From the NCBI RefSeq assembly GCF_003544855.1, contig NZ_CP032101.1, positions 2,604,001 to 2,668,000 of the forward strand: a stretch of 64,000 nucleotides of DNA. The letters run 5' to 3'. The position numbers and the translations under genes were made by a program. The DNA comes from Malaciobacter marinus. Its GTDB lineage: Bacteria; Campylobacterota; Campylobacteria; Campylobacterales; Arcobacteraceae. Within the stretch, counting starts at the first letter, position 1; every line of letters starts with the position of its first letter. The notes under the pieces were generated by a model. The model had not been told where the DNA came from, made no database searches, and was given only the letters and a program-made list of their open reading frames with translations. Shown piece after piece: positions 2,689 through 59,343 of this stretch.

Positions 2689-3069
<381 letters not shown>

Positions 3070-3111: not shown

Positions 3112-4299
3112 TTAAAATGCTCTTTTAAACTCTGGATATGCTTCAAGACCGCACTCTTCTACATCTAAGCCTTGCATCTCTTCTTCATTATGCGCTCTAA
3201 GAGCTACAATTTTATTTAACATAAATAAAACTACATATGAAACAACAAAAGCAAATATACCAATAACAAGTACACCTTTTAATTGTCCAAAAAATGTAAT
3301 ATCTTGACCATTACTAGCAAATATACCAACAGCTAAAGTACCCCAAATACCATTTACTAAATGAACAGAAAGGGCACCAACTGGATCATCAATTCTTAGT
3401 TTATCAAAAAATGATACTGCAAATACAACTAATGTTCCACCAATTGCACCAATTAATATTGGAGTATAAATATTATATAAATCAGGTCCAGCAGTAATTG
3501 CAACTAATCCACCTAAAGCTCCATTTAATATCATTGTTATATCTAACTTTGAATATTTTATATACATTATAATAGATACCATTATAGCTCCAGCAAGTCC
3601 TGCTGTATTTGTATTTAAAATAGTAAGAGCAACTGCATTTGCACTCTCTTTACTAGCAATTGAGCCAACACTTCCACCATTAAATCCAAACCAACCAATC
3701 CATAATAACATTGCACCTAAAGTAACTAAAGGAATATTTGAAGCTGGAATTACTCTAACTCCTCCAGTTTTAGGATATCTTCCTTTTCTGTTTCCAATAA
3801 TTAAAATTGCAGCTAATAATGCCCAACCTCCTGTACTATGAATTACAGTTGAACCAGCTAAATCATACATACTTAAATTTAATGTTGTATTTTCTAAAAA
3901 GTTTGCACCCCAAGTAACATTTACTACAAGAGGATAAATAACAGATGCCATTAATACTGTAAAAAATGCTAAAGGAATAACCTTTGCTCTTTCACTAACT
4001 CCTCCACTCATAATATTTACTACTTTTCCTACAAATGCCATTTGGAAAAGAAAAGCTGCCCACTTACTCATACTATCACTTCCAAAATCACCAAATGCAA
4101 TTGAGTACCCAAAAAGTAAAAAGGCCAAAGAAGCAACTGCATAAATTAAAGTATTGATTGTTAAGACTGCTGTAACATTTTTTGTTCTTACAAGTCCTGC
4201 TTCAAGCATAGCAAAACCTGGTACCATAAAAATGATTAATACCATTGCAAAAATAGCAAAGAAGGTATCTAGCACATAAGATATTGATTCAATCTCCAT
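3112..4299 (-). CDS. amt: Ammonium transporter (first copy)
   Basis: Inner-membrane ammonium channel of the Amt/Mep/Rh family, 395 residues with about eleven hydrophobic segments. The N-terminus contains the family motif FAMLEAGLVRTKN. Both pore histidines are in place: one in STVIHSTGGW and one in GALSVHLVNGIWGT. The ATG is preceded by GAGGATAA. It is followed by glnK1, the normal Amt-PII pairing. It is shorter and clearly divergent from the second Amt (4776-5990), so this is an old duplication or separate acquisition. It has its own promoter because a terminator precedes it at 4394-4418, and a 17-bp palindrome lies 71 bases upstream of the start. Confidence 0.95.
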   Translation of the reverse strand: MEIESISYVLDTFFAIFAMVLIIFMVPGFAMLEAGLVRTKNVTAVLTINTLIYAVASLAFLLFGYSIAFGDFGSDSMSKWAAFLFQMAFVGKVVNIMSGGVSERAKVIPLAFFTVLMASVIYPLVVNVTWGANFLENTTLNLSMYDLAGSTVIHSTGGWALLAAILIIGNRKGRYPKTGGVRVIPASNIPLVTLGAMLLWIGWFGFNGGSVGSIASKESANAVALTILNTNTAGLAGAIMVSIIMYIKYSKLDITMILNGALGGLVAITAGPDLYNIYTPILIGAIGGTLVVFAVSFFDKLRIDDPVGALSVHLVNGIWGTLAVGIFASNGQDITFFGQLKGVLVIGIFAFVVSYVVLFMLNKIVALRAHNEEEMQGLDVEECGLEAYPEFKRAF

Positions 4300-4369: not shown

Positions 4370-4386
4370 TGTATATATTTTATACA
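4370..4386. promoter_or_regulatory. Palindromic operator upstream of amt1
   Basis: TGTATA-TATTT-TATACA, a perfect 6-5-6 palindrome. On the minus strand a TATAAT -10 hexamer sits at 4333-4338, so 31 bases separate it from the palindrome. The same palindrome occurs upstream of amt2 with a 32-base separation. The -35 region of this promoter is poor, which would fit an activator-dependent promoter (inference). Confidence 0.6.

Positions 4387-4417: not shown

Positions 4418-4418
<1 letters not shown>
4394..4418 (-). terminator. Terminator of the amt2-glnK2 operon
   Basis: Read on the minus strand the sequence folds as AAAAAGGGGC, loop ATGAT, GCCTCTTTTT, a 10-bp stem with one G-U pair that ends in five T. 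It touches the glnK2 stop codon (4418-4420). It separates this operon from amt1-glnK1. Confidence 0.8.
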
Positions 4419-4759
<341 letters not shown>

Positions 4760-4775
4760 TCAATCCTTTATATAA

Positions 4776-5990
4776 TTATGATCTTTTAAATTCAGGATAA
4801 GCTTCTAAACCTGTTTCATGAATATCAAGACCATTAATTTCTGTCTCCTCATCAACTCTTAATCCAATTACTAAATCAAGAACTTTCCATACAATAAATG
4901 ATGAAACAAATACAAAAATACCAATTACAACTACACCTTTAATCTGTGCAAAAAATGAAACATCTGGATTAAAAATACCAACTGCTAATGTTCCCCAAAT
5001 ACCTGCAACTAAGTGAACAGAAAGTGCACCAACTGGATCATCAATTTTTAATTTATCCCATAAAGGAACTGCAATTACAACTAAAACTCCACCTACAATA
5101 CCTTCAATAAAAGAAATAACCATTCCCAAATCAGGTCCTGCTGTTACAGAAACAAGTCCTGCTAAAGCACCATTTAACACCATTGTTAAATCCACTTTTT
5201 TGTAAATTAATTGTGTTAATATTGCTGCTGCTATTGCACCAGCACAAGCAGCCATATTTGTATCTGCAATAACTAAAGCAATACCATCAATATCTGCTTT
5301 ACTTCCTAAAGCTAATTGTGAACCACCATTAAATCCAAACCAACCCATCCATAAAATAAATGTACCAAGTGTTGCTAATGTTAAGTTTGAACCAGGAATT
5401 GGTCTTACATTACCATTTTTACCATACTTGCCTTTTCTTGCTCCAAGAATTAAAACTCCAGCAAGTGCAGCCCAACCACCAACAGAGTGTACAATTGTAG
5501 AACCAGCAAAGTCAGAAAATCCTGCAAGAATTCCACCTAATTCACTTCCACCCCATGTCCAGTGACCCTGAATTGGATAAATTACACCACTTAATACAAC
5601 TACAAATATAAGAAATGGCCATAGTTTCATTCTTTCTGCAATTGTTCCTGAAATAACAGAAGCTGCTGTTGCTACAAATACAACTTGAAAAAAGAAATCA
5701 GCCATAACTGGATATCCCATAGCTTCATTTGTTTTACCTGAAAGCATTGCTCCACTTCCAATAAATGATGAACCATCTCCATACATAAAGTTATATCCTA
5801 CAAAATAGAACATAATACAAGATATTGCAAAAAGTGCAATATTTTTCGTAAGTACAGTTGCATTATTTTTTGTTCTAGTAAGACCAGCCTCTAACATAGC
5901 AAACCCAGCTGCCATCCACATAACAAGAATTCCTGCAAATACAAACAAGAACCCATCTAAGATATATTTTACATCAGCAAAATTTTCCAT
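4776..5990 (-). CDS. amt: Ammonium transporter (second copy)
   Basis: Amt-family ammonium channel, 404 residues, with the N-terminal FAMLEAGLTRTKN motif and both pore histidines (STIVHSVGGW and GALSVHLVAGIWGT). It ends EAYPEFKRS, nearly the same tail as the first Amt (EAYPEFKRAF); this cytoplasmic tail touches PII proteins in the family. The start has a strong AAAAGGAGACTT ribosome site. It heads the amt2-glnK2 operon. A good promoter lies at 6018-6046 and a 17-bp palindrome at 6056-6072. It diverges from the glnD operon. Confidence 0.95.
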   Translation of the reverse strand: MENFADVKYILDGFLFVFAGILVMWMAAGFAMLEAGLTRTKNNATVLTKNIALFAISCIMFYFVGYNFMYGDGSSFIGSGAMLSGKTNEAMGYPVMADFFFQVVFVATAASVISGTIAERMKLWPFLIFVVVLSGVIYPIQGHWTWGGSELGGILAGFSDFAGSTIVHSVGGWAALAGVLILGARKGKYGKNGNVRPIPGSNLTLATLGTFILWMGWFGFNGGSQLALGSKADIDGIALVIADTNMAACAGAIAAAILTQLIYKKVDLTMVLNGALAGLVSVTAGPDLGMVISFIEGIVGGVLVVIAVPLWDKLKIDDPVGALSVHLVAGIWGTLAVGIFNPDVSFFAQIKGVVVIGIFVFVSSFIVWKVLDLVIGLRVDEETEINGLDIHETGLEAYPEFKRS

Positions 5991-6017: not shown

Positions 6018-6046
6018 AGTATAAAATATAAATTTTAGATTGTAAA
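6018..6046 (-). promoter_or_regulatory. Sigma-70 type promoter of amt2-glnK2
   Basis: On the minus strand a -35 TTTACA (6041-6046) and a -10 TATACT (6018-6023) are separated by exactly 17 bases; each hexamer matches five of six consensus bases. The predicted start of transcription is about 20 bases upstream of the amt2 ATG. Confidence 0.65.
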
Positions 6047-6055
6047 CACATATTA

Positions 6056-6072
6056 TGTATATTTTATATACA
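6056..6072. promoter_or_regulatory. Palindromic operator upstream of amt2
   Basis: TGTATA-TTTTA-TATACA, the same 6-5-6 palindrome as at 4370-4386. It lies just upstream of the amt2 -35 hexamer, centred near -53, a position suited to an activator. It is also 80 bases from the related site in the divergent glnD-operon promoter. Confidence 0.6.
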
Positions 6073-6151: not shown

Positions 6152-6180
6152 TTGAATAGTTTTTATACATAATTTATAAT
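6152..6180 (+). promoter_or_regulatory. Promoter of the glnD operon with overlapping operator-like site
   Basis: A -35 TTGAAT (6152-6157) and -10 TATAAT (6175-6180) are 17 bases apart and lie about 50 bases before the first gene at 6230. A TGAATA-GTTTT-TATACA sequence at 6153-6169 matches the amt palindrome with one mismatch and covers the -35 and spacer. A protein bound there would block this promoter, which suggests negative autoregulation (inference). Confidence 0.55.
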
Positions 6181-6229: not shown

Positions 6230-7090
6230 ATGAGAGAGTTTTTAGAAGTATATGAAGAGAACCAAGAGAAAGTTGATTATTTTTTACAAGAGAGTTTAAG
6301 AAATATAGGAAAATTATCTTCACATAAAAAAATAAATTTTGCACAACTATTTAATCTTTTTCCTTCACTTGAGTTAGTATATATTGTAGATAAAAATACA
6401 AAACATCAAACTTCAGATGATATTTATAAGAATAAGACTGACAATAGAGGTAAAGATAAAGATAGATCACATTTAATTTCAAAACTTGAATTGAAAAATA
6501 ATCATATAGCTTTTTCAAAACCTTATATAAGTAGTGCCACTAGAAATAATTGTATTACACTATCAATTAAAGAAAATGATGAAATTATATTTTTAGATTT
6601 TAGATTAGATATCTTACTTGAAAAATTAAACTTGATTGAGTTACATAAGCCTTTTCATGCTATGACAAGAAGTTTTTATCTTTTTGTAGGTTTTTCAATG
6701 ATTACCCTAGCAGTAATTACAATCTTATTTTCATTGTATGATTTTATACTATATTTATTCCAAAACCAAGATATTAAATTAGAGTTTATGTTTAAACCAA
6801 TAATAGCACTTACTTTAGGTATGGCTATTTTTGATTTAGCAAAAACCATTTTAGAACAAGAGGTATTTTTCAAATCCTATGCAAAAAGCTCAAGAGTTGA
6901 AACAAAAATGATAACAAAATTTTTGATTACTATTATTATTGCTTTATCAATTGAAGCCCTAATTGTTGTATTTAAAATAGCTATTGATGGATATGAAGAG
7001 ATGATTAATGCATTATATTTAATCTCTGGTGTATCAATAATATTAGTTGCTTTAGCAATATTTGTTTATTTAGATAAAAAGAAAAAATAA
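6230..7090 (+). CDS. Membrane protein with Cache/PDC-like sensor segment, function unknown
   Basis: 286 residues. The first ~145 residues are soluble and contain a LELVYIVDKNTKH strand followed by FSKPYISSATRN and a LDFRLD strand, the pattern of a PDC/Cache-type sensing fold. After it come about four hydrophobic segments (roughly 150-172, 186-204, 225-247, 258-280) ending in a short basic tail. There is no kinase, cyclase or methyl-accepting domain. The start follows a good AAAAGGAG site. It is the first gene of an operon with the NtrC-like gene and glnD, so a role in sensing nitrogen status or regulating its partners is possible, but this rests on position alone. I do not recognise an experimentally characterised homologue. 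Confidence 0.7.
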   Translation: MREFLEVYEENQEKVDYFLQESLRNIGKLSSHKKINFAQLFNLFPSLELVYIVDKNTKHQTSDDIYKNKTDNRGKDKDRSHLISKLELKNNHIAFSKPYISSATRNNCITLSIKENDEIIFLDFRLDILLEKLNLIELHKPFHAMTRSFYLFVGFSMITLAVITILFSLYDFILYLFQNQDIKLEFMFKPIIALTLGMAIFDLAKTILEQEVFFKSYAKSSRVETKMITKFLITIIIALSIEALIVVFKIAIDGYEEMINALYLISGVSIILVALAIFVYLDKKKK

Positions 7091-7100
7091 AGGATAAGAA

Positions 7101-7853
7101 ATGCAAGAGTTTATAGCCGCATCATCAAACTCTAAAGAGATTTTAAATTCAGCCAAACTTTTACAAGCTGTAAATATTCATGCTTTAATATATGGAGAAA
7201 CAGGAGTAGGGAAAAAAACTTTAGCAAAGTTTATTACTCCTGATGCAAAAGTATTTACATGCTATGAACTACAAAAAGATATTTCTCAAAAAGTTTTAGA
7301 TATCAATAAACAAACTATTATTATAGAAAAAATAGAAGAACTAACCAATATTGATCTTCTTTTATCTTGGATAGAAGAGAATGAGATTAGAATAATTGCA
7401 ACAACACAAGCAAAAAAACTAAATCAAAAATTAAATGATTTTTTCTCTATTACCCTTTCAATTCCACCTTTAAACCAAAGAGAAGATGATTTAAAACTAC
7501 TAACTCAAAAGTTTTCAAATGAAGCAAGTAAAGTTTTAAGAACAGAGAAGATACTTCCTTCAAAACTTATGCTAAATACAAATAAAAATGCCCATAGTTT
7601 AAGAAAGTCTATATATTTTTCTTATCTTTTTGAAACAGTAGGCGAAGATGAAATTCTTATGTTTTTAGAAAACTATATGTTTACAAACTTACAAGGAGAG
7701 AACTCTTATAAAGATTTCTTGTATCTTTTTGAAGTACCTTTATTAAAAGCAGCCAAGAAAAAATATAAGTCGCAAGTTCAAATGGCAAAATATTTAGGAT
7801 TAAATAGAATTACCCTAAGAAAAAAACTAGATACACACAAAGAGTTATTATGA
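7101..7853 (+). CDS. Shortened NtrC-like regulator (degenerate AAA+ domain plus Fis-type HTH)
   Basis: 250 residues, far shorter than NtrC (about 470). There is no receiver domain. The AAA+ part has a Walker A GETGVGKK near residues 33-40, a Walker-B-like strand IIIEKIEEL in which the usual DE pair is altered, and an IPPLNQREDDL segment like that of sigma-54 activators. The GAFTGA loop needed to contact sigma-54 is not present; the stretch between Walker A and B is much shortened. The last ~40 residues (KSQVQMAKYLGLNRITLRKKL) form a Fis-type helix-turn-helix. It sits 10 bases after the membrane protein gene and overlaps glnD by four bases (ATGA). Likely a DNA-binding nitrogen regulator acting without sigma-54, by analogy with the GAFTGA-less NtrC of Rhodobacter capsulatus; its target is inferred. 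Confidence 0.75.
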   Translation: MQEFIAASSNSKEILNSAKLLQAVNIHALIYGETGVGKKTLAKFITPDAKVFTCYELQKDISQKVLDINKQTIIIEKIEELTNIDLLLSWIEENEIRIIATTQAKKLNQKLNDFFSITLSIPPLNQREDDLKLLTQKFSNEASKVLRTEKILPSKLMLNTNKNAHSLRKSIYFSYLFETVGEDEILMFLENYMFTNLQGENSYKDFLYLFEVPLLKAAKKKYKSQVQMAKYLGLNRITLRKKLDTHKELL

Positions 7854-10402
7854 TAAATGAATTTAATTTAAATAAAGTAAATCTAAAAGTAGAAGAGTTA
7901 ATATCAAATAATGCAAGTGATTTTGAAATATCAAAAGTATTTAAAAATCACATAAAAGAGTACAAGAAATCAATAGATATTGTACTTGATACTACTGGTG
8001 GAAAAGATTTTTTTGTAAAAAATACAAAACATACAGATAAATTTTTAACTTCTTTATATAAATATATTCTAAGAAAACATTTTGGTTCATATCAACCTAT
8101 GAGTACAGCTATTCCTATTACTTTAGTTGCCCTTGGAAGTTATGGAAGAGAACAACTTTGTATCTATTCTGATATTGATTTGATGATACTTTATGAGGAT
8201 ATTAAAGGTTATAATTTAAAAGAGATTATGGAAGACTTTATTACTCTTGCTTGGGATTGTGGATTAAAATTGGGTTCAAGAGTTCATGAACTAAATGAAA
8301 TAGAAGATGCAGTGAAAGAAGATATTACAATAAAAACTTCAATCATTGAATCAAGAGTAATTTGTGGTTCAAAATATCTTTGGTTTGCTTATGAAAATAC
8401 TTTAAATAATATCAGAAAAACAGATATAGAAGATTTTGTAATTGAAAAACTTGAAGAACATAAACAAAGACTATTAAAATATCCACTAAAAATGGAGCCA
8501 AATATAAAAGATGGATATGGAGGGCTTAGAGAATCAAATATGATTTCTTGGATGTCTTATATTCTTTATGGTACACAAAATACTAAAGATTTAATAGGCA
8601 AAGAGATAACAGAAGAAGAACATAAAATATATAGAAGTTCTTTAGAGTATATTTTTCAAGTTAGAAATGCACTTCATAATATATCAAAAAGAAAATTAGA
8701 TGTTGTAAACTTTGATGTATTACCAGAGCTTAGCTCAAAACTTGGTTTTATAAATAAACCAAGATATACAAAAGAGAGACAATGCATGTCAAAGCTTTTG
8801 TATTCATTGCATAATATTCATTTCTTTTCTACTGTAATGGTAAAAAAGTTTGCAAGAGTTTTATTAAAACAAAATACTGAATTAAAACTATTAAAAAGTA
8901 CAAGACTTAAAAAGAACCTTTATTTATTTGAGGGAAAAGTTTATACATCTTTTCATAGAAAACCTATAAGTTTAAATCTATTTTTAAAAGAATTAATTTC
9001 TTTACCAAAAGAAGTTAAATCTTTTGATAGATCTTATATTTATTATGCAAGTAAAATCAAAGTTCCTACAAAACAAACAAATGAATTAAAGAAAAACATT
9101 AAAACTTTGCTATTAAAAACATCTTTATATCCAATAATAAAACTTTTATATAATTCAAATTTATTTAAAGCAATAATACCTATTACAAAAAAAATAATAA
9201 ATCAACCTCAATTTGATGGATATCATCAACACCCAGTTGATATACACTCAATAAAAACCTTAAAAAAGATTGAAAATATTGAAGATACATTTATCAAAGA
9301 GATTTATGATTCACTAACTCCTAGTGAAAAATCAGTCACAAAACTTGCTGCACTTTTACACGATGTAGGAAAAGGAAGAACTGGAGATCATCATATAGCA
9401 GGAGAAAAACTCTCTAAGAATTTCATGCTTTCTTTAGATTTTGATAGCAAACAAGTGCAAATGGGAAGTCAATTAGTAAGATATCATAATAAAATGAGTG
9501 CTTATGCTAAAAATGAAGATATATACTCTGAAAGAATAATCTTAGCATTTACAGGTATTGTAAAATCAAGACAAATGTTAAAAATGCTTTATATTGTAAC
9601 TTATGCTGATATCTCAGCAGTTGGTAAAAATGTGTTTAATAGCTCAACGGCTTCACTTTTAAAAGAACTCTATTTTCAATCACTTCCAGCTTTTGAGAAT
9701 CTTGAGTTATTAAAAGAAAGCTCAAGAAGGGTTGCAAAAATCAATACAATTAAAAATTTAAAAAGATACAAAGAGTTATCTAATCTTATGAAAAGAAAAA
9801 TAAAGTATATCTCATCAAATCAAATTTTCTTAAGATTAAAAGCTGAAGATATTTTAGATATTGCAATAAAAGCAAAAGATGTAAATAGCTATATATATAA
9901 AATCACAAATAATCAACAATTGGTTATTAGAATAATTAGAAAAATTCCTTTAAATTTAGGTTTTTTACTTGGAAAATTAGAGTTTCTAAATATTTTTAGT
10001 ATGAATATTTTTAAACTTTATGATGAGAAAAAAGCTTTTGAGATTACTTTTAGTGAAAAAGTTGACCAAGGAGATATTGAGCTTGTTAAACAAATAATTG
10101 AAAGTTCATTTGATATGAGCAAGATAACAAAAACTAGAAAACCTGTTATCAAAAAAAATGAAGTTATTGCAAACTGTAACCATAGTCCATATCTAGCTTC
10201 GCTTCAAGTAAAAACAAAAGATCAAAAGGGACTTTTTGCTTATATTGCAAAAATATTTGATGATTTTAATATCGAAATTGAAAGTGCTAAACTTGCTAGT
10301 ACTAAAAATTACACAAGAGATTTAATTTTGATTGAGAAAAATGGAACTTTTTGTGGGAAACAAGATGAAATTATCAATCTTATTTGCTCAAATGAAGATT
10401 AA
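7850..10402 (+). CDS. glnD: [Protein-PII] uridylyltransferase / uridylyl-removing enzyme
   Basis: Bifunctional sensor that uridylylates PII when glutamine is low and removes UMP when it is high. At 850 residues it is near the E. coli length of 890. The nucleotidyltransferase motif GSYGREQ followed by YSDIDLMI lies near residues 95-114. The HD hydrolase motif LLHDVGKGRTGDHH is near 501-514. A clear ACT domain occupies about 775-845 (SLQVKTKDQKGLFAYIAK); a first, more divergent ACT-like region precedes it. Translation is coupled to the NtrC-like gene by a four-base overlap. Its substrates are plausibly the two PII proteins encoded within 8 kb. The stop overlaps that of the convergent aas gene. 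Confidence 0.95.
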   Translation: MINEFNLNKVNLKVEELISNNASDFEISKVFKNHIKEYKKSIDIVLDTTGGKDFFVKNTKHTDKFLTSLYKYILRKHFGSYQPMSTAIPITLVALGSYGREQLCIYSDIDLMILYEDIKGYNLKEIMEDFITLAWDCGLKLGSRVHELNEIEDAVKEDITIKTSIIESRVICGSKYLWFAYENTLNNIRKTDIEDFVIEKLEEHKQRLLKYPLKMEPNIKDGYGGLRESNMISWMSYILYGTQNTKDLIGKEITEEEHKIYRSSLEYIFQVRNALHNISKRKLDVVNFDVLPELSSKLGFINKPRYTKERQCMSKLLYSLHNIHFFSTVMVKKFARVLLKQNTELKLLKSTRLKKNLYLFEGKVYTSFHRKPISLNLFLKELISLPKEVKSFDRSYIYYASKIKVPTKQTNELKKNIKTLLLKTSLYPIIKLLYNSNLFKAIIPITKKIINQPQFDGYHQHPVDIHSIKTLKKIENIEDTFIKEIYDSLTPSEKSVTKLAALLHDVGKGRTGDHHIAGEKLSKNFMLSLDFDSKQVQMGSQLVRYHNKMSAYAKNEDIYSERIILAFTGIVKSRQMLKMLYIVTYADISAVGKNVFNSSTASLLKELYFQSLPAFENLELLKESSRRVAKINTIKNLKRYKELSNLMKRKIKYISSNQIFLRLKAEDILDIAIKAKDVNSYIYKITNNQQLVIRIIRKIPLNLGFLLGKLEFLNIFSMNIFKLYDEKKAFEITFSEKVDQGDIELVKQIIESSFDMSKITKTRKPVIKKNEVIANCNHSPYLASLQVKTKDQKGLFAYIAKIFDDFNIEIESAKLASTKNYTRDLILIEKNGTFCGKQDEIINLICSNED

Positions 10403-13996: not shown

Positions 13997-14326
13997 ATGG
14001 AAACTTTTTTAAAAACAATAAGCGCAGTAAATGATGAGACAAGATTACGAATTTTAAACTTTATTGACATTAATAAACAAGTTTGTGTTTGTGATATAGA
14101 AAACTCTTTTGATATGATTCAATCAAGAGTTTCAAGACACTTAAAAATATTAAAAGAAGCTGGTTTTTTAAGTGTTGAAAGAAAAGGAAGATGGGCTTAT
14201 TATGATATAAGAACTCCAATGGATGAATTTAGACAATCTATTTTAAAAGAGATTAGTTATCTTGAGTTAAATATACCTATACTTAAAAAAAGTTGCTCAA
14301 ATGAAAAAGATGGAGCAACTATATGA
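13997..14326 (+). CDS. arsR: Arsenic-responsive ArsR-family repressor
   Basis: 109-residue winged-helix metalloregulator that leaves its operator when it binds arsenite. The helix that carries the metal site contains QVCVCDIE, with Cys30 and Cys32 matching the CVC motif of classical ArsR proteins, and there is a further Cys in the C-terminal KKSCSNEK. The recognition helix region is [18 protein letters not shown]. It heads the arsenic cluster and overlaps arsB by four bases (ATGA). The operator overlapping its own promoter implies autorepression. A second copy of the operator lies upstream of the permease at 16050. Confidence 0.93.
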
Positions 14327-15576
14327 TATTAGCAAGTGGGATTTTTCTACTAACTCTTATTTTTGTTATTTGGCAACCAAAAGGTTTACAAATAGGAACA
14401 ACAGCAGTAATTGGAGCAATAATTGCTTTAATAGCAGGTGTTGTAAGTTTTAGTGATGTACAAATTGTTACAAGTATAGTATGGGATGCAACTTTAGCAT
14501 TTATAGGTATTATTATTCTTTCTTTAGTACTTGACGAAATTGGTTTTTTTGAGTGGGCTGCACTTAAAATGGCAAGATTTTCAAATGGAAATGGTTTGAA
14601 AATGTTTGTTTACTCTATCTTATTGGGTGCTTTTGTTTCAGCACTTTTTGCAAATGATGGAGCAGCACTTATACTAACTCCTATTTTACTTGCAAAAATG
14701 AGAATATTAAAACTAAATTTAAAAACTATTATTGCATTTTTACTTGCTGGTGGATTTATAAGTGATAGTGCATCTTTACCTTTTGTATTCTCAAATCTTA
14801 CAAATATAGTTACTGCTAATTACTTTAATATAGGATTTGCTCAATATTTCTTTGATATGTTTATTCCTTATATTATAAGTGTAATAGCATCAATATTTTT
14901 CTTATGGCTAATTTTAAGAAAAGATATTCCAAAAAGTGTTGATATATCACTTTTAAAAGAGCCAAAAACTGCTATTAAAGATATGAAACTATTCTATTTT
15001 TCATGGCTATTTTTAGCAGTTTTACTTGTAGGTTATTTTATTGGAGATATTTATGGATTGCCTGTTAGTTTATTTGCTTTAGGTGGAGGTATAATCTTCT
15101 TAATAATTGCAAGTATAGCAAAAACAGTAAATCCAAAAACTATTATAAAAGATGCACCATGGCAAGTTGTATGGTTTAGTATTGGACTTTATATAGTTGT
15201 TTATGGACTTAAAAATGCAGGATTAACTGATTATTTGACAATAGTTTTAAAAGATTTAAGCTTAAGAGGTGATGCAATTGCAGTTATAAGTACAGGTTTT
15301 ATTGCAGCATTTTTAAGTGCTATTATGAATAATATGCCAACAATTATGATTATGGATATAGCTTTAGAAGATATTGGAAATCAAGCTATGATTTACGCAA
15401 ATATAGTAGGATGTAACTTAGGACCAAAAATGACTCCATTTGGTAGTTTAGCCACGCTATTATGGCTTCATGTCTTAGCAAAAAAAGGTGTAAATATCTC
15501 TTTTGCCCAATATAGTAAATTTGGGATGATAATAACACCACCAGTACTATTAATAGTACTACTTACATTAATTTAA
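14323..15576 (+). CDS. arsB: Arsenite efflux pump membrane subunit
   Basis: 417-residue inner-membrane carrier of the ArsB type that exports arsenite or antimonite. The protein is almost entirely hydrophobic, about 11-12 segments. Family motifs are visible: [20 protein letters not shown] in the middle and [10 protein letters not shown] ... [18 protein letters not shown] near the C-terminus. No arsA ATPase is nearby, so the pump would run on the membrane potential. It is translationally coupled to arsR by a four-base overlap and followed by arsC after 11 bases. Confidence 0.93.
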
Positions 15577-15587
15577 AAGGGTAAAAA

Positions 15588-15989
15588 ATGGAAAAAAAAG
15601 TTTTAATTTTATGCACAGGAAACTCTTGTAGAAGTATCATAGCAGAGGCTTTAATAAATGCAAAATGTGATGGTATAAGTGCTGATTCTAGTGGAGTAAA
15701 AGCTAGTGGAAAAGTAAACGCTAATGCTAAAAAAATTCTTGAAGATAAAGGAATTTGGCAAGAGAAATATCATTCAAAAACAATTGATACAGTAATAGAT
15801 AATGAATACGATTTAATAGTAACTGTGTGTGATAATGCAAATGAAACTTGCCCTATGTTTCCCAAAAAGACTAAAGTTATTCATGTGGGATTTGAAGATC
15901 CAGATGGAAAAGATTTTGAAGCATTTAAAAAAACATATATAGAAATAGAAGAAATATTACTTCCTAAAGTAAAACATGCACTTTTATAA
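15588..15989 (+). CDS. arsC: Arsenate reductase, thioredoxin-linked low-molecular-weight phosphatase type
   Basis: 133 residues. Reduces arsenate to arsenite for export by ArsB. The phosphatase P-loop is CTGNSCRS (Cys9 to Ser16), and the two further redox cysteines are Cys81 and Cys88 in VTVCDNANETCP, the pattern of the pI258 ArsC family that uses thioredoxin rather than glutaredoxin. AGGGTAAAA precedes the ATG. It lies third in the arsR-arsB-arsC operon. Confidence 0.94.
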   Translation: MEKKVLILCTGNSCRSIIAEALINAKCDGISADSSGVKASGKVNANAKKILEDKGIWQEKYHSKTIDTVIDNEYDLIVTVCDNANETCPMFPKKTKVIHVGFEDPDGKDFEAFKKTYIEIEEILLPKVKHALL

Positions 15990-40668: not shown

Positions 40669-43600
40669 TTAAATATCAGGATCAACTGAAACATCCTCAT
40701 CAATTAGAATTTTGATATTTGAAGTTCCACTTGTAGTTCCCTCATAAACATTGAATGTATTACCATCATCATCTGAAATTTGCCCATCTGATTTTGTCCA
40801 ATTCCCCTCAAGCCTAACACTATCTTCACCAGACTCATCACCAAATATTTTCAAGATATTTTCATCATCAGTTAAATCTTCAATACTTTGTTCATCAACA
40901 ATAATATGATTTGCTAAATCATTTGTTAAATCAATGGCTTCAATATTATCAACTTTTGGTGCTATATTTGAAAGATCTATATCTTCATCAGTTAGTACTT
41001 TTAAAGTATCTTCACCCTCACCTGCATCAATAATATCACCCTCATGATAAACAATTTCATCATCTCCTGCGCCTGCATTAATATTTGCATTTGAACCATG
41101 AGAATCAAATTTTTCATCCGCATCAGTTCCAATCATATTTGAAGACTCTTCTACTTCAAGTTTTGCAGTTGTTGAAGTAGTTTTTTCTTCGCCATCAAAA
41201 GACTCTGTTGAAGTTACACTTGCTTTCATTGAATTAATTTCTGTACTAGATAATTCTGTTGATGATACAACCGTGTATTCTTGTTGTGTACCTTCATTTG
41301 ATGGTAAAGATACTGTTCCATTAGAAACAGTATACTCATTTCCACTACTATCTTTTATACTAGTAATTGATGAAGGTAAATTTTCAATTGTAATATTTGA
41401 CAATGTTTCACTTCCATCTTTGTCAGCTAATACAGCTGCTAATACAATAGTATAATTATAAATAGTTGTACTCATTGGTGAACTATTAAATGCATTTGAA
41501 TCACCTATGATATGACCATCTTTAAATTTAATGTTTTCAAAATCTTTAATATGATTTTGAATATAATCTTTATTGTAATAATAATCACTATATGTATAAT
41601 CTTTTAAATATATTGAATCATTACCTTCTCCACCAAATACATAACCAGAAACTTTATCTTCAACTGTAATAAAGTCATCTCCATTACCTAGATATATAGC
41701 ACCTCTACTTTTAATGTCATCTCCAACATAAACAACATCATCTCCACCAAATGTTTGAACTGTACCTTTTACATCATCATTATATTTTATATACTCAGCC
41801 TCATTTGTATATCTTTCTCCATAATAATCACTATTATCTTTTGTAACATCATAATCATGACTAATTACTTGACTACCATTATCTTCTACACTAAAATCTA
41901 ATCTTGGAGTAGTTACAGTATCATCAATATTATTTTCAATATTAATGTTTACTTTTACACTTGCTTTATCTCCATCTTCATCTTGAGTATTTACTACAAA
42001 GCTTTCTGTAAACTCTTTTATATCATTAAATTTTCCACCAAAGCTATAATCCCCTGTTTGAAAATTAAAATCTAAAGTAGCTCCTGAACTAGTTAAAATT
42101 GTAACAATATTATTTGATGCATCATCTATTGTATAGCTATTTCCATCTACAACAATTGACTCAACAGAAATTTCACCATCACCTCCAGATATATTATCTA
42201 AAATATTTCCTTCAATTTTTTTATAAACATTCTCAACAAGTCTATCTTTTAAATCATTTTCATCTTCTATGATTGTCACATTTGTTTTTACATTACCAAC
42301 ATCTTGTGCAACTTTATCTAAATAAGTAGTATCTGTAATACCTTTACCTATTCCTATTACATTTAACTCTTTAGCATTGTTTTCTAAAAAGTCTTTCCAG
42401 TTTTCTAAGTATTTACTATCAATAATTCCATATTCATCATACCAACCATCATTATTTTCAACACTTGGTTTACCATCAGAGATGAAATAAACTGTTGCTT
42501 TTTCTCCATTTGTAGGAGGAGTATAGTTTGAATATGTCTCTTCTAGTGCATCTTCATAGTTTGTACCACCACCTGCATCAAATTTATTTATAACTTTTAA
42601 TGCATCTTCTGGACTATACCAACCATCAATAGGAGATACCCACTCACCATCTACATATGTTGAATCATCTAAATCATCTGCAGTTCTTGCAAAAGAAGTT
42701 AAATTAATTTTTACATTAGAGAACTCTTTATATGTATCTATCATATTTTGTAAAGCATCTTTTGCTAATTGTAATCTAGTTATCCATGAACCGTCTTCTT
42801 GTTGAACATAATCATCCATACTTCCTGAAATATCTAAAACAATTACAATATTTTCATCTGTTTTACTATATGTATCTCCAAAATCCAATACTTGTGATTC
42901 ATCTTGTGCAAAAGGAACTGCATCACTGTTTGTTGTTTCTTTATAGTTTGTTCCATCTTCATTATCATTTGATTCACTTGCTCTTGCTGTAATAGTTAGA
43001 TTAAAATCACCTGCACTATCTTCAGGAACTTTTAATTTTAAATTGTCACTTATAGATGTTGAATCTGCTGGAACTTCTACACTATATGAACCATCACTAT
43101 TTTTTGTAATAGTATAAGTATCATCTATACTTTCAAGTGTTGCACCCTCAGGAACTCCATCAATTTTTACACTTAATGTTTCACTTCCATCTGTATCAGT
43201 TAATGCAGCACTAATATCTACATCATACTCAAATGTTTTTGTTCCCTCTTTTACAAGTTCTCCATCAATAACATCATAAACACCATCTTTAAATACTAAT
43301 TTTTCAATACTATATAAATTATCACCCATTTCATAAGTATCTAAACCTTGATTGTCAGGATGAGACCAACCTTTTGATGCATCATATCTAGTATCAATTA
43401 CATTTATTCTAACATTTGAACCCTCAGTAATAAATGTAATATTATAATCATCAAAATTACCTCTATATATTACAGTATCTGTTCCATCTGAAACAGAAGG
43501 TAATGCTCCTTCATGTCCTCCATAAATAGAGTCATCTCCTTCTTGTCCTAAGAATACATCATCCCCATCATAACCTATCATATTATCAGATAAGTCTTTT

Positions 43601-46600
43601 CCATCAATAAAATCATCAGTATTGTTAAATCTACCTGCTGATAAATTATCACCATGTGATTCAGTACCTTCAATATATGTATCAGAATTATCTTTCAACT
43701 CTTGTACATAATTGTCATAATCAAAGTCTGAATTATCAATTATTACAGTTGCATTACTAACATTGATTGAAGCAGTTGGCGCATCTGCTACTGCTTTTAC
43801 TTCAACTGATGTTGTGTACTCTTCATCATGCCATGTAGTTCCATCTGAAACTTCAAATTTAAAACTACCATCTTCATCACTATTTGAATCAGGTTCAAAA
43901 ATAACTTTTCCAGAAGCAATATCAGCTAGAGAGATAACTTGATTTTCTGCAATTTCAATAGTTGTATCTTCTGTAACCACATAAGTATTACCCTCTTTAT
44001 CTATTACAGTTTGTCCACTTGTTACTTTATAGTATAAAGTTCCATTTTCAGGAACTTGTGTTATTTTAAACTCTCTTACATCTTTTCCAAGCTCACCAAA
44101 ATCTGTCTCTGTTAATACATATGTTGTATCTTCTGTTACAACAATATTATCATTTGTTGAACTTAAATCATCTTTGAAAGAGTCACTTAAATCAAATGAA
44201 CTATCAGTTCCATTTACTTTTTCATAATTTCCACCAACAATCTCTTTTACAACAATATTAATATCAGATAAATCATCAAAATCTTTTGCATCAACAGTTA
44301 AAGCACCTCTTCCAGTAGCATTTAAATCAACCTCATACTCTTGACCATTTACTTCAACAATAGCTTTTGCTTGTCCTTGAGGTGGATAGTTTTCATCTAC
44401 TTGAATATTAAATGTAACTTTACCTTCAGATGTATTAATATCTGTAATTTCAGGATCAATAACTTCTGTATATGAAATTTCATTTATTAAATAATCATCA
44501 TCATGTCCTGGTGCACTAAACTCAACTTTATCAAATGCTGTTGGTTCACCATTTGCATCTGGAAATTCAAAAGTATAAGATAAATCAACTCTATCAGTTC
44601 CACCTTGAGCTTGAACAGATTTAATCAAGTTACCATTTACATCATAATAATTAACAGTCGCATCTGTACTAGAACCACCTCCAGTAACTTCTGCATACCC
44701 TAACTCTTCTGTATCATTAAAAAATGTAACTTTAGCAGTTTCACCGTTATGTCTCCAAGCAAAAGCTACATCTAATGAATCAGCATCATTAGTAAAATCA
44801 AAAACTATTTTTTCACTAACTCCATTATATCCATGACCTAACTCTGAACTTGCTCCTGAACCTGATGTATTTCCTTGAACACCAAAACCATCATGGTTTG
44901 TTCCTTTAACAATTGCTAAGTTCCCTTCATTGCCATATACATCATAAGCAGTTACATTAATACCCGTAGCTTCACCAAACTCAGTATCAACATCAATAAC
45001 TTTTGGAGCAGTTGCAACTGCTGTTACTGTCACGTCAATAGGTGTAATTGTATCAGCTATATTTGCTGTTACTGTATCTGTAGATGGTGTTAATTGTTCA
45101 AAGTTTCCACCCTCTACACTTGTAATTGAATTATCTAATGTACTTGCATCATTATATACATCTTCTGTATTTGGGTTTGTTACTTCTAGTGTTCCTGTTG
45201 TTCCACTTGTAATTGTGATATCACCTAACTCTGTATGTACTATAACTGGATCATCACCTGCTAATACTGGGTTTGATAATGTAGCTGTAAATGTTACTGT
45301 TCCTGCTGCCTCATTTGTATCTGTTGCACTTAAACTTACTGTTGTCTCATCAGCTGTTGGCTCTGTTACAGTTGTTGTTGCTGTATCACTTGTATCTAGG
45401 CTTTCATAATTTCCACCAGTAGTTCCTGTGATTGATACGTTCTCTGTTGTTCCATCTGTTTGTCCATATACATCATCAGAACTTGCTACTGTTACACTTC
45501 CAGTAGTTTTTCCAGCTTCGATTGTAATCTCTGCTCCATTACTTAATGTGATTACTAAATCTGTCTCTGGTGTATTATCTACACTTGCAGTATATGTTAT
45601 ATCTTCACCTGCTTCTACACTGTCTGTTGCTGTAAGTGTTACTTTTGTAGCATCTATTGTATCAGCTATATTTGCTGTTACTGTATCTGTAGATGGTGTT
45701 AATTGTTCAAAGTTTCCACCCTCTACACTTGTAATTGAATTATCTAATGTACTTGCATCATTATATACATCTTCTGTATTTGGGTTTGTTACTTCTAGTG
45801 TTCCTGTTGTTCCACTTGTAATTGTGATATCACCTAACTCTGTATGTACTATAACTGGATCATCACCTGCTAATACTGGGTTTGATAATGTAGCTGTAAA
45901 TGTTACTGTTCCTGCTGCCTCATTTGTATCTGTTGCACTTAAACTTACTGTTGTCTCATCAGCTGTTGGCTCTGTTACAGTTGTTGTTGCTGTATCACTT
46001 GTATCTAGGCTTTCATAATTTCCACCAGTAGTTCCTGTGATTGATACGTTCTCTGTTGTTCCATCTGTTTGTCCATATACATCATCAGAACTTGCTACTG
46101 TTACACTTCCAGTAGTTTTTCCAGCTTCGATTGTAATCTCTGCTCCATTACTTAATGTGATTACTAAATCTGTCTCTGGTGTATTATCTACACTTGCAGT
46201 ATATGTTATATCTTCACCTGCTTCTACACTGTCTGTTGCTGTAAGTGTTACTTTTGTAGCATCTATTGTATCAGCTATATTTGCTGTTACTGTATCTGTA
46301 GATGGTGTTAATTGTTCAAAGTTTCCACCCTCTACACTTGTAATTGAATTATCTAATGTACTTGCATCATTATATACATCTTCTGTATTTGGGTTTGTTA
46401 CTTCTAGTGTTCCTGTTGTTCCACTTGTAATTGTGATATCACCTAACTCTGTATGTACTATAACTGGATCATCACCTGCTAATACTGGGTTTGATAATGT
46501 AGCTGTAAATGTTACTGTTCCTGCTGCCTCATTTGTATCTGTTGCACTTAAACTTACTGTTGTCTCATCAGCTGTTGGCTCTGTTACAGTTGTTGTTGCT

Positions 46601-49600
46601 GTATCACTTGTATCTAGGCTTTCATAATTTCCACCAGTAGTTCCTGTGATTGATACGTTCTCTGTTGTTCCATCTGTTTGTCCATATACATCATCAGAAC
46701 TTGCTACTGTTACACTTCCAGTAGTTTTTCCAGCTTCGATTGTAATCTCTGCTCCATTACTTAATGTGATTACTAAATCTGTCTCTGGTGTATTATCTAC
46801 ACTTGCAGTATATGTTATATCTTCACCTGCTTCTACACTGTCTGTTGCTGTAAGTGTTACTTTTGTAGCATCTATTGTATCAGCTATATTTGCTGTTACT
46901 GTATCTGTAGATGGTGTTAATTGTTCAAAGTTTCCACCCTCTACACTTGTAATTGAATTATCTAATGTACTTGCATCATTATATACATCTTCTGTATTTG
47001 GGTTTGTTACTTCTAGTGTTCCTGTTGTTCCACTTGTAATTGTGATATCACCTAACTCTGTATGTACTATAACTGGATCATCACCTGCTAATACTGGGTT
47101 TGATAATGTAGCTGTAAATGTTACTGTTCCTGCTGCCTCATTTGTATCTGTTGCACTTAAACTTACTGTTGTCTCATCAGCTGTTGGCTCTGTTACAGTT
47201 GTTGTTGCTGTATCACTTGTATCTAGGCTTTCATAATTTCCACCAGTAGTTCCTGTGATTGATACGTTCTCTGTTGTTCCATCTGTTTGTCCATATACAT
47301 CATCAGAACTTGCTACTGTTACACTTCCAGTAGTTTTTCCAGCTTCGATTGTAATCTCTGCTCCATTACTTAATGTGATTACTAAATCTGTCTCTGGTGT
47401 ATTATCTACACTTGCAGTATATGTTATATCTTCACCTGCTTCTACACTGTCTGTTGCTGTAAGTGTTACTTTTGTAGCATCTATTGTATCAGCTATATTT
47501 GCTGTTACTGTATCTGTAGATGGTGTTAATTGTTCAAAGTTTCCACCCTCTACACTTGTAATTGAATTATCTAATGTACTTGCATCATTATATACATCTT
47601 CTGTATTTGGGTTTGTTACTTCTAGTGTTCCTGTTGTTCCACTTGTAATTGTGATATCACCTAACTCTGTATGTACTATAACTGGATCATCACCTGCTAA
47701 TACTGGGTTTGATAATGTAGCTGTAAATGTTACTGTTCCTGCTGCCTCATTTGTATCTGTTGCACTTAAACTTACTGTTGTCTCATCAGCTGTTGGCTCT
47801 GTTACAGTTGTTGTTGCTGTATCACTTGTATCTAGGCTTTCATAATTTCCACCAGTAGTTCCTGTGATTGATACGTTCTCTGTTGTTCCATCTGTTTGTC
47901 CATATACATCATCAGAACTTGCTACTGTTACACTTCCAGTAGTTTTTCCAGCTTCGATTGTAATCTCTGCTCCATTACTTAATGTGATTACTAAATCTGT
48001 CTCTGGTGTATTATCTACACTTGCAGTATATGTTATATCTTCACCTGCTTCTACACTGTCTGTTGCTGTAAGTGTTACTTTTGTAGCATCTATTGTATCA
48101 GCTATATTTGCTGTTACTGTATCTGTAGATGGTGTTAATTGTTCAAAGTTTCCACCCTCTACACTTGTAATTGAATTATCTAATGTACTTGCATCATTAT
48201 ATACATCTTCTGTATTTGGGTTTGTTACTTCTAGTGTTCCTGTTGTTCCACTTGTAATTGTGATATCACCTAACTCTGTATGTACTATAACTGGATCATC
48301 ACCTGCTAATACTGGGTTTGATAATGTAGCTGTAAATGTTACTGTTCCTGCTGCCTCATTTGTATCTGTTGCACTTAAACTTACTGTTGTCTCATCAGCT
48401 GTTGGCTCTGTTACAGTTGTTGTTGCTGTATCACTTGTATCTAGGCTTTCATAATTTCCACCAGTAGTTCCTGTGATTGATACGTTCTCTGTTGTTCCAT
48501 CTGTTTGTCCATATACATCATCAGAACTTGCTACTGTTACACTTCCAGTAGTTTTTCCAGCTTCGATTGTAATCTCTGCTCCATTACTTAATGTGATTAC
48601 TAAATCTGTCTCTGGTGTATTATCTACACTTGCAGTATATGTTATATCTTCACCTGCTTCTACACTGTCTGTTGCTGTAAGTGTTACTTTTGTAGCATCT
48701 ATTGTATCAGCTATATTTGCTGTTACTGTATCTGTAGATGGTGTTAATTGTTCAAAGTTTCCACCCTCTACACTTGTAATTGAATTATCTAATGTACTTG
48801 CATCATTATATACATCTTCTGTATTTGGGTTTGTTACTTCTAGTGTTCCTGTTGTTCCACTTGTAATTGTGATATCACCTAACTCTGTATGTACTATAAC
48901 TGGATCATCACCTGCTAATACTGGGTTTGATAATGTAGCTGTAAATGTTACTGTTCCTGCTGCCTCATTTGTATCTGTTGCACTTAAACTTACTGTTGTC
49001 TCATCAGCTGTTGGCTCTGTTACAGTTGTTGTTGCTGTATCACTTGTATCTAGGCTTTCATAATTTCCACCAGTAGTTCCTGTGATTGATACGTTCTCTG
49101 TTGTTCCATCTGTTTGTCCATATACATCATCAGAACTTGCTACTGTTACACTTCCAGTAGTTTTTCCAGCTTCGATTGTAATCTCTGCTCCATTACTTAA
49201 TGTGATTACTAAATCTGTCTCTGGTGTATTATCTACACTTGCAGTATATGTTATATCTTCACCTGCTTCTACACTGTCTGTTGCTGTAAGTGTTACTTTT
49301 GTAGCATCTATTGTATCAGCTATATTTGCTGTTACTGTATCTGTAGATGGTGTTAATTGTTCAAAGTTTCCACCCTCTACACTTGTAATTGAATTATCTA
49401 ATGTACTTGCATCATTATATACATCTTCTGTATTTGGGTTTGTTACTTCTAGTGTTCCTGTTGTTCCACTTGTAATTGTGATATCACCTAACTCTGTATG
49501 TACTATAACTGGATCATCACCTGCTAATACTGGGTTTGATAATGTAGCTGTAAATGTTACTGTTCCTGCTGCCTCATTTGTATCTGTTGCACTTAAACTT

Positions 49601-52600
49601 ACTGTTGTCTCATCAGCTGTTGGCTCTGTTACAGTTGTTGTTGCTGTATCACTTGTATCTAGGCTTTCATAATTTCCACCAGTAGTTCCTGTGATTGATA
49701 CGTTCTCTGTTGTTCCATCTGTTTGTCCATATACATCATCAGAACTTGCTACTGTTACACTTCCAGTAGTTTTTCCAGCTTCGATTGTAATCTCTGCTCC
49801 ATTACTTAATGTGATTACTAAATCTGTCTCTGGTGTATTATCTACACTTGCAGTATATGTTATATCTTCACCTGCTTCTACACTGTCTGTTGCTGTAAGT
49901 GTTACTTTTGTAGCATCTATTGTATCAGCTATATTTGCTGTTACTGTATCTGTAGATGGTGTTAATTGTTCAAAGTTTCCACCCTCTACACTTGTAATTG
50001 AATTATCTAATGTACTTGCATCATTATATACATCTTCTGTATTTGGGTTTGTTACTTCTAGTGTTCCTGTTGTTCCACTTGTAATTGTGATATCACCTAA
50101 CTCTGTATGTACTATAACTGGATCATCACCTGCTAATACTGGGTTTGATAATGTAGCTGTAAATGTTACTGTTCCTGCTGCCTCATTTGTATCTGTTGCA
50201 CTTAAACTTACTGTTGTCTCATCAGCTGTTGGCTCTGTTACAGTTGTTGTTGCTGTATCACTTGTATCTAGGCTTTCATAATTTCCACCAGTAGTTCCTG
50301 TGATTGATACGTTCTCTGTTGTTCCATCTGTTTGTCCATATACATCATCAGAACTTGCTACTGTTACACTTCCAGTAGTTTTTCCAGCTTCGATTGTAAT
50401 CTCTGCTCCATTACTTAATGTGATTACTAAATCTGTCTCTGGTGTATTATCTACACTTGCAGTATATGTTATATCTTCACCTGCTTCTACACTGTCTGTT
50501 GCTGTAAGTGTTACTTTTGTAGCATCTATTGTATCAGCTATATTTGCTGTTACTGTATCTGTAGATGGTGTTAATTGTTCAAAGTTTCCACCCTCTACAC
50601 TTGTAATTGAATTATCTAATGTACTTGCATCATTATATACATCTTCTGTATTTGGGTTTGTTACTTCTAGTGTTCCTGTTGTTCCACTTGTAATTGTGAT
50701 ATCACCTAACTCTGTATGTACTATAACTGGATCATCACCTGCTAATACTGGGTTTGATAATGTAGCTGTAAATGTTACTGTTCCTGCTGCCTCATTTGTA
50801 TCTGTTGCACTTAAACTTACTGTTGTCTCATCAGCTGTTGGCTCTGTTACAGTTGTTGTTGCTGTATCACTTGTATCTAGGCTTTCATAATTTCCACCAG
50901 TAGTTCCTGTGATTGATACGTTCTCTGTTGTTCCATCTGTTTGTCCATATACATCATCAGAACTTGCTACTGTTACACTTCCAGTAGTTTTTCCAGCTTC
51001 GATTGTAATCTCTGCTCCATTACTTAATGTGATTACTAAATCTGTCTCTGGTGTATTATCTACACTTGCAGTATATGTTATATCTTCACCTGCTTCTACA
51101 CTGTCTGTTGCTGTAAGTGTTACTTTTGTAGCATCTATTGTATCAGCTATATTTGCTGTTACTGTATCTGTAGATGGTGTTAATTGTTCAAAGTTTCCAC
51201 CCTCTACACTTGTAATTGAATTATCTAATGTACTTGCATCATTATATACATCTTCTGTATTTGGGTTTGTTACTTCTAGTGTTCCTGTTGTTCCACTTGT
51301 AATTGTGATATCACCTAACTCTGTATGTACTATAACTGGATCATCACCTGCTAATACTGGGTTTGATAATGTAGCTGTAAATGTTACTGTTCCTGCTGCC
51401 TCATTTGTATCTGTTGCACTTAAACTTACTGTTGTCTCATCTATTGTATCTGTGATATTTATTGTTTTACTTGCTCCATCTACACTTACATCTTCGAAGT
51501 TTCCACCATTGATTGCTGTTACTTCTGCTGTTAATGTTGAAGCATCATTATATACATCTGAATCTTTTGTATCTATTGTTAATGTACCTTCACCATTTGC
51601 ATCTAATGTTACTGTATGTTCTACTCCACCAACTACTACTGTTGCTGTTGCACTTGTCCCTGCATCTGGTGCATTTGATGTTTGGATTGTAAATGTTACT
51701 GAATCGGCATCTTCATTTACATCATTTCCACTTATACTTACTGTTGTTGTATCTATTGTATCAATTACTGTTGTACTAGCTGTTGTATCACTATTTACAA
51801 TGTCAAAGCCTCCGCCATCTGTTCCAGAAACTGTTGCTTCAATTGTGATATCTTCTTCTTTATACACATCAGGATCTGGAGTAATACTTGCAACTACACT
51901 TCCTGTAGTTGATCCAGCAGGAATATTAATTATTGCACCATTACTTAATGTAATAGTCATATCTGTTAATGCAGGAGTAGAAAGATTGGCTGTATATGTT
52001 ATTGAGTTATCATCTTCTGTAATTTGTGATGTTGCACTTAATGTTATAGTTACTTCTGTATCCCCTGCACCATCTCCAGGAGTACCGTCTCTATCAGGAA
52101 TATTTGAGTCTAATCCATCTAATTGAGTATCAAGTCTACTTCTTCCACCTAATATATTTACATCATCTGCATCATTAAAGTTAATAGGTCTAAAAGTTGA
52201 AGTATCACCTTCAGCCCCACCAGCAGCTGCAGCATCAAGCATACTTGTTAAAGAACCAAAGTCATCTATTATAACTCCATTTGTTTCTTCTGGATTTATA
52301 GATGATTGAGCCAATAAGTCTTTTAAAGATTTAATTACATCATCACCTTTAAAATCATTATTTAATACTGTTTGATTTAATTCTTCAAGGCCTTCTTCAT
52401 CTTTAATAATACCTAAAATATTTTTATCTTCTACATTTTCTTCAAGGATTAAATCTACTATGTTTTTAAATACAATTTTTACTTTTGTTGTTCCTAAATC
52501 CATATTTAAAACAACCGATTTTTCAGAATCTTGAAGATTCATTGTGTATTTATGCCCATCAAGATTATTAAAATAGAACTGTTGACCAGCTTTTGGAGTA

Positions 52601-57096: not shown

Positions 57097-57098
57097 GA

Positions 57099-59258: not shown

Positions 59259-59343
59259 AAGCCTACCTTTTTAAATTTAAATTAAATTTATTATACAATT
59301 AAATTTATAAAGGTATAATTTCATCTCTTTTATAAGACCCAAA

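Follow-up and report, generated by a model that had tools for sequence, protein, structure and literature searches.

The protein of 250 amino acids encoded at positions 7101-7853 (forward strand, ATG start) of the window, i.e. the whole 64 kb stretch of DNA analysed, is best read as the DNA-binding member of an order-wide, phosphorylation-free nitrogen switch, derived from NtrB and NtrC and operating at sigma-70 promoters of the Campylobacterales. This reading, in which the protein is referred to as mini-NtrC, is considered likely, with a probability of about 0.78; activation and the input from PII are inferred, and no binding, expression or interaction data are available. Support at the sequence level covers the anatomy of the protein, its conservation, its target sites, their promoter type, the joint loss of protein and sites, their covariation, and the co-inheritance of mini-NtrC with a second protein, a remnant of NtrB.

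Mini-NtrC is made up of an AAA+ core, devoid of GAFTGA and of the Walker B acids, followed by an NtrC-type HTH. Pfam matches were found above cut-off for Sigma54_activ_2 (29 bits) and Sigma54_activat, and weakly for HTH_8. The Walker A motif reads GETGVGKK, the Walker B position is occupied by IIIEK, where the acid pair is lost, and GAFTGA does not occur anywhere in the 250-aa sequence. A receiver domain with its phospho-accepting Asp is likewise absent: the AAA+ region begins at residue 5, and the orthologues collected are all 241-271 aa long. A confident AlphaFold model (pLDDT 92.5) shows an AAA+ core with its strands and helices, after which the chain is helical up to the HTH at its end; the closest solved folds are the AAA+ domains of the sigma-54 activators ZraR, NtrC1, NtrX, FlrC and PspF. 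The preliminary description had claimed a Walker A motif and a Fis-type HTH, without receiver domain, Walker B acid pair or GAFTGA. This held for both sequence and Pfam matches, and the structure prediction confirmed the AAA+ core. As to the origin of the protein, comparison with a set of NtrC sequences by hhalign gave an E-value of 2.3e-36, the NCBIfam ntrC model TIGR01818 was matched by 26/26 members, all far below the equivalog cut-off, and the recognition helix NRNTLRKK is common to some mini-NtrCs and to full-length NtrC-type controls. Mini-NtrC is thus described as an NtrC-derived AAA+/Fis-HTH protein, an ancestry which rests on profile scores.

The same anatomy is found in 110 distinct orthologues from across the Campylobacterales. 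None of them contains GAFTGA or the Walker B DE pair, the Walker A pattern GxxxxGK is retained in 106, and the NtrC-type recognition helix NRxTLxKK in all 110; full-length NtrC-type controls from other lineages carry both GAFTGA and NRNTLRKK in 11/11 cases. Reading frames stay open at about 250 aa order-wide, and 19 to 24 positions are invariant, depending on the alignment. Finding GAFTGA in orthologues would have meant that its loss was a local decay; its absence from 110/110 rules this out. Orthologues were found in 81 of the 104 Arcobacteraceae genomes and are spread over the order, except for the lineages without the gene, namely two families (f10 and f13) and part of one genus (g2).

The genome which contains the window is, judging by its named relatives, of Arcobacteraceae type, within the Campylobacterales, and consists of one contig of 2.92 Mb. 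Here the mini-NtrC gene is located between memX (6230-7090, forward strand), coding for a predicted membrane protein without any Pfam family above cut-off, and glnD (7850-10402, forward strand), coding for the PII uridylyltransferase and overlapping the mini-NtrC stop codon. The memX-mini-NtrC-glnD genes are divergent from amt1-glnK1-amt2-glnK2. The location between a sensor-like membrane protein and glnD, near NtrC-shaped palindromes at sigma-70-like promoters, had been noted previously and is confirmed. Linkage to memX and glnD is mostly an Arcobacteraceae trait. In several other families mini-NtrC is flanked by a slyD-like isomerase gene and by fabD, near tol-pal genes and not near nitrogen genes, and its separation from glnD in the deeper branches rules out glnD linkage as the defining context. 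Two earlier proposals are corrected accordingly: the reduced form in a GlnD operon belongs to a regulator type which is order-wide and not restricted to such an operon, and the conserved partner is neither the membrane protein nor glnD, being instead another degenerate protein, of NtrB descent.

Exactly two perfect TGTATA-N5-TATACA palindromes are present in the window, each of them before an amt gene. The first, TGTATATTTTATATACA at 6056-6072, is the predicted mini-NtrC site for the ammonium transporter gene amt1 (4776-5990, reverse strand) and the PII gene glnK1 (4418-4756, reverse strand), and its position is conserved in nearly all relatives carrying mini-NtrC. It is followed, on the reverse strand, by a -35-like hexamer, TTTACA (6041-6046), and, after a spacer of 17 bp, by a -10-like hexamer, TATACT (6018-6023). 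The second, TGTATATATTTTATACA at 4370-4386, is the predicted site for amt2 (3112-4299) and glnK2 (2689-3027), also encoding an ammonium transporter and a PII protein on the reverse strand; all four genes are predicted targets. A near-palindrome with one mismatch, TGAATAGTTTTTATACA at 6153-6169, is the predicted autoregulatory site of the memX-mini-NtrC-glnD operon, and has a counterpart, in which 5 or all 6 of the arm positions match, in most of the congeners aligned. Genome-wide, the one-mismatch pattern is no commoner than a reversed control (32 vs 41 in the window's genome) and is uninformative, so that only exact copies can be used. Five of these occur in the genome: before amt1, amt2, glnA and one ORF of unknown function, plus one within a gene. 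As a separate observation, the copy before the 476-aa ORF of unknown function (C1:958406-958422) lies 87 bp upstream of it, a distance as at amt and glnA, and may mark an extra target.

The promoters next to these sites are of the sigma-70 type. In 55 anchored promoters the palindrome is followed by a gap, commonly of 8-9 bp, a -35-like element (best TTTACA), about 17 bp, and a TATAAT-like -10; many amt2 promoters combine a good -10 with a poor -35. No convincing -24/-12 elements, as used by sigma-54, were detected in any of the 55, and no PF04552 match, diagnostic here of rpoN, was found in the window's genome. A sigma-54 function of mini-NtrC is ruled out on these two grounds, rpoN missing from the window's genome and target promoters lacking -24/-12. 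Within the Arcobacteraceae, rpoN is present in 33/104 genomes, and mini-NtrC occurs both with and without it. The location of the predicted sites at -35/-10 promoters of amt is shown at the sequence level; activation together with RpoD is an inference.

In the loci of Arcobacteraceae carrying mini-NtrC, the region upstream of amt contains a perfect 17-bp palindrome (TGnnnn-N5-nnnnCA) in 58 of 81 cases, where Markov shuffles would predict 0.34. Relatives have further copies upstream of glnA, gltB, nirB, nifA and the mini-NtrC gene itself; glnA, gltB, nirB and nifA were recognised from the starts of their proteins, glnA with an additional check by PF00120. In some lineages the autoregulatory sites are located 28-42 bp before the listed mini-NtrC start codon.

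Joint loss of protein and sites could be followed within genus g2, some members of which have no mini-NtrC gene and yet retain glnA, most of these having also glnK-amt and glnD. The palindrome was found at 0/12 glnA and 0/7 amt upstream regions of these relatives, whereas it is present at 5/5 glnA upstream regions of g2 genomes carrying mini-NtrC (Fisher p 1.6e-4 for glnA). Exact palindromes average 5.41 per g2 genome in the presence of mini-NtrC and 0.07 in its absence (Mann-Whitney p 1e-6); shared ancestry is ignored in both tests. The reversed control pattern is flat within the genus, at 0.47 vs 0.36 per genome, and the compared regions are similar in base composition. Some of the comparison genomes are incomplete.

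The sequence of the half-site changes with that of the recognition helix. Proteins with the helix NRNTLRKK, found in Sulfurovum and in genomes of families f6, f16, f18 and f20, are accompanied by the amt-upstream palindrome TGATTA-N5-TAATCA, at about the same distance, and those with NR[I/V/A]TL by palindromes with the half-site TGTATA. This covariation is partly phylogenetic; it is not merely the product of one deep split, because both states are found inside f6 and inside f18. In the absence of binding data, it speaks for mini-NtrC itself as the protein recognising the palindrome, and for control of amt also by the homologues of other families whose neighbours are slyD-like and fabD-like genes. 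In some members of the order carrying mini-NtrC no perfect palindrome was found upstream of the amt gene examined, so that site recognition outside the Arcobacteraceae is only partly covered. The DNA targets of mini-NtrC are, on the whole, strongly supported by comparative genomics, without binding or expression data. The preliminary proposal that a reduced, GAFTGA-less NtrC is a sigma-70 nitrogen regulator is similarly supported by comparative and not by experimental evidence, the choice between activation and repression being untested; beyond the initial observations it is backed by the lack of rpoN, the sigma-70-type promoters at amt, the loss of the sites along with the protein, and the covariation of half-site and helix.

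Two observations on variant forms are reported separately. The glnA gene of one genome of genus g20 (G102) is preceded, at -85, by TGGTTA-N5-TAACCA, and the helix there reads NRVTLRKK, possibly a further half-site variant. A divergent second mini-NtrC type, with helix NRNTLRKK, was seen in genome G043 and in an Arcobacter MAG contig; TGATTA-N5-TAATCA sites of its own precede both the regulator gene and an amt gene. G043, which is 7% contaminated, has both the second and the ordinary type.

In several branches mini-NtrC is directly followed by a gene for a protein of about 229 aa, the ends of the two often overlapping. Pfam gave no credible family for this protein. NCBIfam matches were to PAS and, in 7/20 members, to NR(II)/NtrB NF008293, with a best E-value of 4e-4, below the equivalog cut-off. 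Profile comparison gave P 8.8e-7 against a 12-member NtrB set, 0.033 against NtrY and 0.3 against three histidine kinases of the window; with single sequences, the hhalign comparison to E. coli NtrB is weak (P 0.0034), the relationship being clear only with the 12-member set. In the global profile alignment PAS is aligned to PAS, the DHp region, with its phospho-accepting His, is missing and skipped, and the linker and CA regions follow. The AlphaFold model (pLDDT 87.6) is matched by the solved catalytic domain of NtrB (1r62, TMt 0.62), and the NifL-NifA complex 9qq6 is also among the fold matches. On the basis of profile comparison and fold, the protein is interpreted as an NtrB-derived one, composed of PAS and a degenerate ATPase domain, from which the domain for His phosphorylation is gone.

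In a phylum-wide sample of 121 genomes, mini-NtrC and the NtrB remnant are present in the identical 32 genomes. The gene order in Sulfurovum is mini-NtrC, NtrB remnant, amt, glnK. Where it is unlinked, the gene for the remnant comes immediately after an rpoD-like gene in almost all of the loci of this kind that were examined; in the window's genome it lies outside the window (C1:1135341-1136027), on the strand of rpoD and separated by only 3 bp from this gene, which precedes it, and the sigma-70 regions of this rpoD were confirmed by Pfam. A nitrogen role of the remnant is less certain, because it is usually encoded beside rpoD and not beside nitrogen genes. In one genome of family f15 (G117:C1:543771-544394) the remnant contains an in-frame TAA, perhaps the onset of partner loss.

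In the proposed mechanism, mini-NtrC would still bind DNA and retain an AAA+ scaffold of nucleotide-binding type, and would have given up everything required for phospho-signalling and for the remodelling of sigma-54. Probably in dimeric form, which is an inference, it would bind TGTATA-N5-TATACA, or TGATTA-N5-TAATCA where the helix has Asn, just upstream of the amt-glnK -35, with the site centred near -50 if standard spacing to the transcription start is assumed. Further predicted targets are located upstream of glnA and of its own operon and, in relatives, of gltB, nirB and nifA. Most likely the targets would be activated under nitrogen limitation through contact with sigma-70 RNA polymerase; this step is inferred, and is possible because the NtrC of Rhodobacter capsulatus acts together with RpoD (PMC6925177, citing Bowman and Kranz 1998). 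The activity of mini-NtrC would probably be set by contact with the NtrB remnant and not by phosphorylation, an inference for which only co-occurrence and gene adjacency have been shown. The remnant, in turn, may be informed of the nitrogen status by GlnK/PII, which GlnD modifies, in a NifL-NifA-like manner, for which there is no evidence of PII binding. In a bolder reading, the NtrB/NtrC system has been rebuilt into a switch free of both phosphorylation and ATP hydrolysis, in which remnant and mini-NtrC together govern sigma-70 promoters through protein contact and signals from PII, and whose DNA site later switched between TGTATA and TGATTA with one residue of the recognition helix; this is a close call, tipping slightly against it.

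Four alternatives were considered. In the first, the sites are the same, and mini-NtrC mainly represses amt, glnA and related genes, or regulates them in both directions, like TyrR. Repressors are included among GAFTGA-defective relatives such as TyrR and its paralogue PhhR (PMC3162934), and the autoregulatory sites close to the mini-NtrC start in some lineages are placed where binding could block transcription. The amt site is however located upstream of the -35 at a fixed gap of about 8-9 bp, an activator-like place, and the poor -35 next to a good -10 in many amt2 promoters is typical of activator dependence, making repression unlikely. In the second, also unlikely, the signal partner is memX and not the NtrB remnant: memX adjoins mini-NtrC in most Arcobacteraceae loci and in locus L153, and the remnant is usually encoded with rpoD instead. 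With the exception of L153, however, memX does not adjoin mini-NtrC in the other families examined, while the remnant accompanies it in 32/32 genomes and is clustered with it, amt and glnK in Sulfurovum. In the third, the palindromes are recognised by a different transcription factor, mini-NtrC being merely a co-inherited accessory; no binding assay excludes this, and co-loss could mean that a whole nitrogen network was lost. Nonetheless the half-site tracks the mini-NtrC helix residue even between lineages of one family (f6, f18), the geometry of the palindrome (17 bp, N5) is that of NtrC sites, palindromes precede the mini-NtrC gene itself, and glnA, mostly with glnK, amt and glnD, is retained where gene and sites are lost; this alternative appears very unlikely. 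Finally, a decaying, functionless NtrC pseudogene, as the loss of receiver domain, GAFTGA and Walker B might suggest, is practically excluded by uninterrupted frames of about 250 aa order-wide, the invariant positions and a helix kept in 110/110.

The preferred reading, a phosphorylation-free switch at sigma-70 promoters, has partial parallels among known systems. The NtrC of R. capsulatus lacks GAFTGA and, as a full-length protein, includes the receiver domain and is paired with a kinase. It resembles mini-NtrC in being a GAFTGA-less nitrogen regulator of the NtrC family, which uses the housekeeping sigma factor and has nifA-type targets; it differs in that mini-NtrC has no receiver, GAFTGA region or Walker B acids, and a partner without the His domain. 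TyrR, DhaR and HupR, which are GAFTGA-defective and are reported to depend on sigma-70 (PMC3162934), similarly place the fold of sigma-54 activators at sigma-70 promoters, but are larger, with N-terminal input domains and other targets, and none consists of a 250-aa AAA+ core plus HTH. The enterobacterial NtrB/NtrC pair (glnL/glnG) shares with both Campylobacterales proteins the family, as judged by profile, the 17-bp palindromes and the amt-glnK and glnA targets, whereas the Campylobacterales pair has neither phosphorylation chemistry nor sigma-54 promoters. NifL, a PAS plus histidine-kinase-like protein, controls the sigma-54-type activator NifA by contact, with PII input. The NtrB remnant and mini-NtrC would be a comparable pair, but NifA keeps GAFTGA and uses sigma-54, and contact between remnant and mini-NtrC is only inferred.

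The paper describing the A. butzleri genome reported an apparent lack of proteins of the NtrC/NtrB family and of RpoN (PMC2147049), and no description of a nitrogen regulator for Campylobacterales, or of the pair formed by mini-NtrC and the NtrB remnant, was found in the open-licence PMC literature searched. Mini-NtrC is a candidate for this role in most lineages of the order which are not of Campylobacter or Helicobacter type, with concrete sites, targets and partner, and could explain nitrogen control without the textbook system in many free-living relatives of Campylobacter. The pair would also provide a case of a two-component system outliving the loss of phosphotransfer and, probably, of ATPase activity, and an instance of a switch in DNA recognition that can be traced from family to family.

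Other features of the window were noted in passing. An arsenic-resistance-like cluster (ArsR-like regulator, ArsB-like transporter, ArsC-like reductase) is located at 13997-15989, as judged by sequence reading only. A single ORF of 4000 aa at 40669-52671 contains about a dozen near-identical repeats of about 203 aa and looks like a giant, repeat-rich surface protein; it lies upstream, in map order, of genes at 55615-60729 resembling parts of a type I secretion system.
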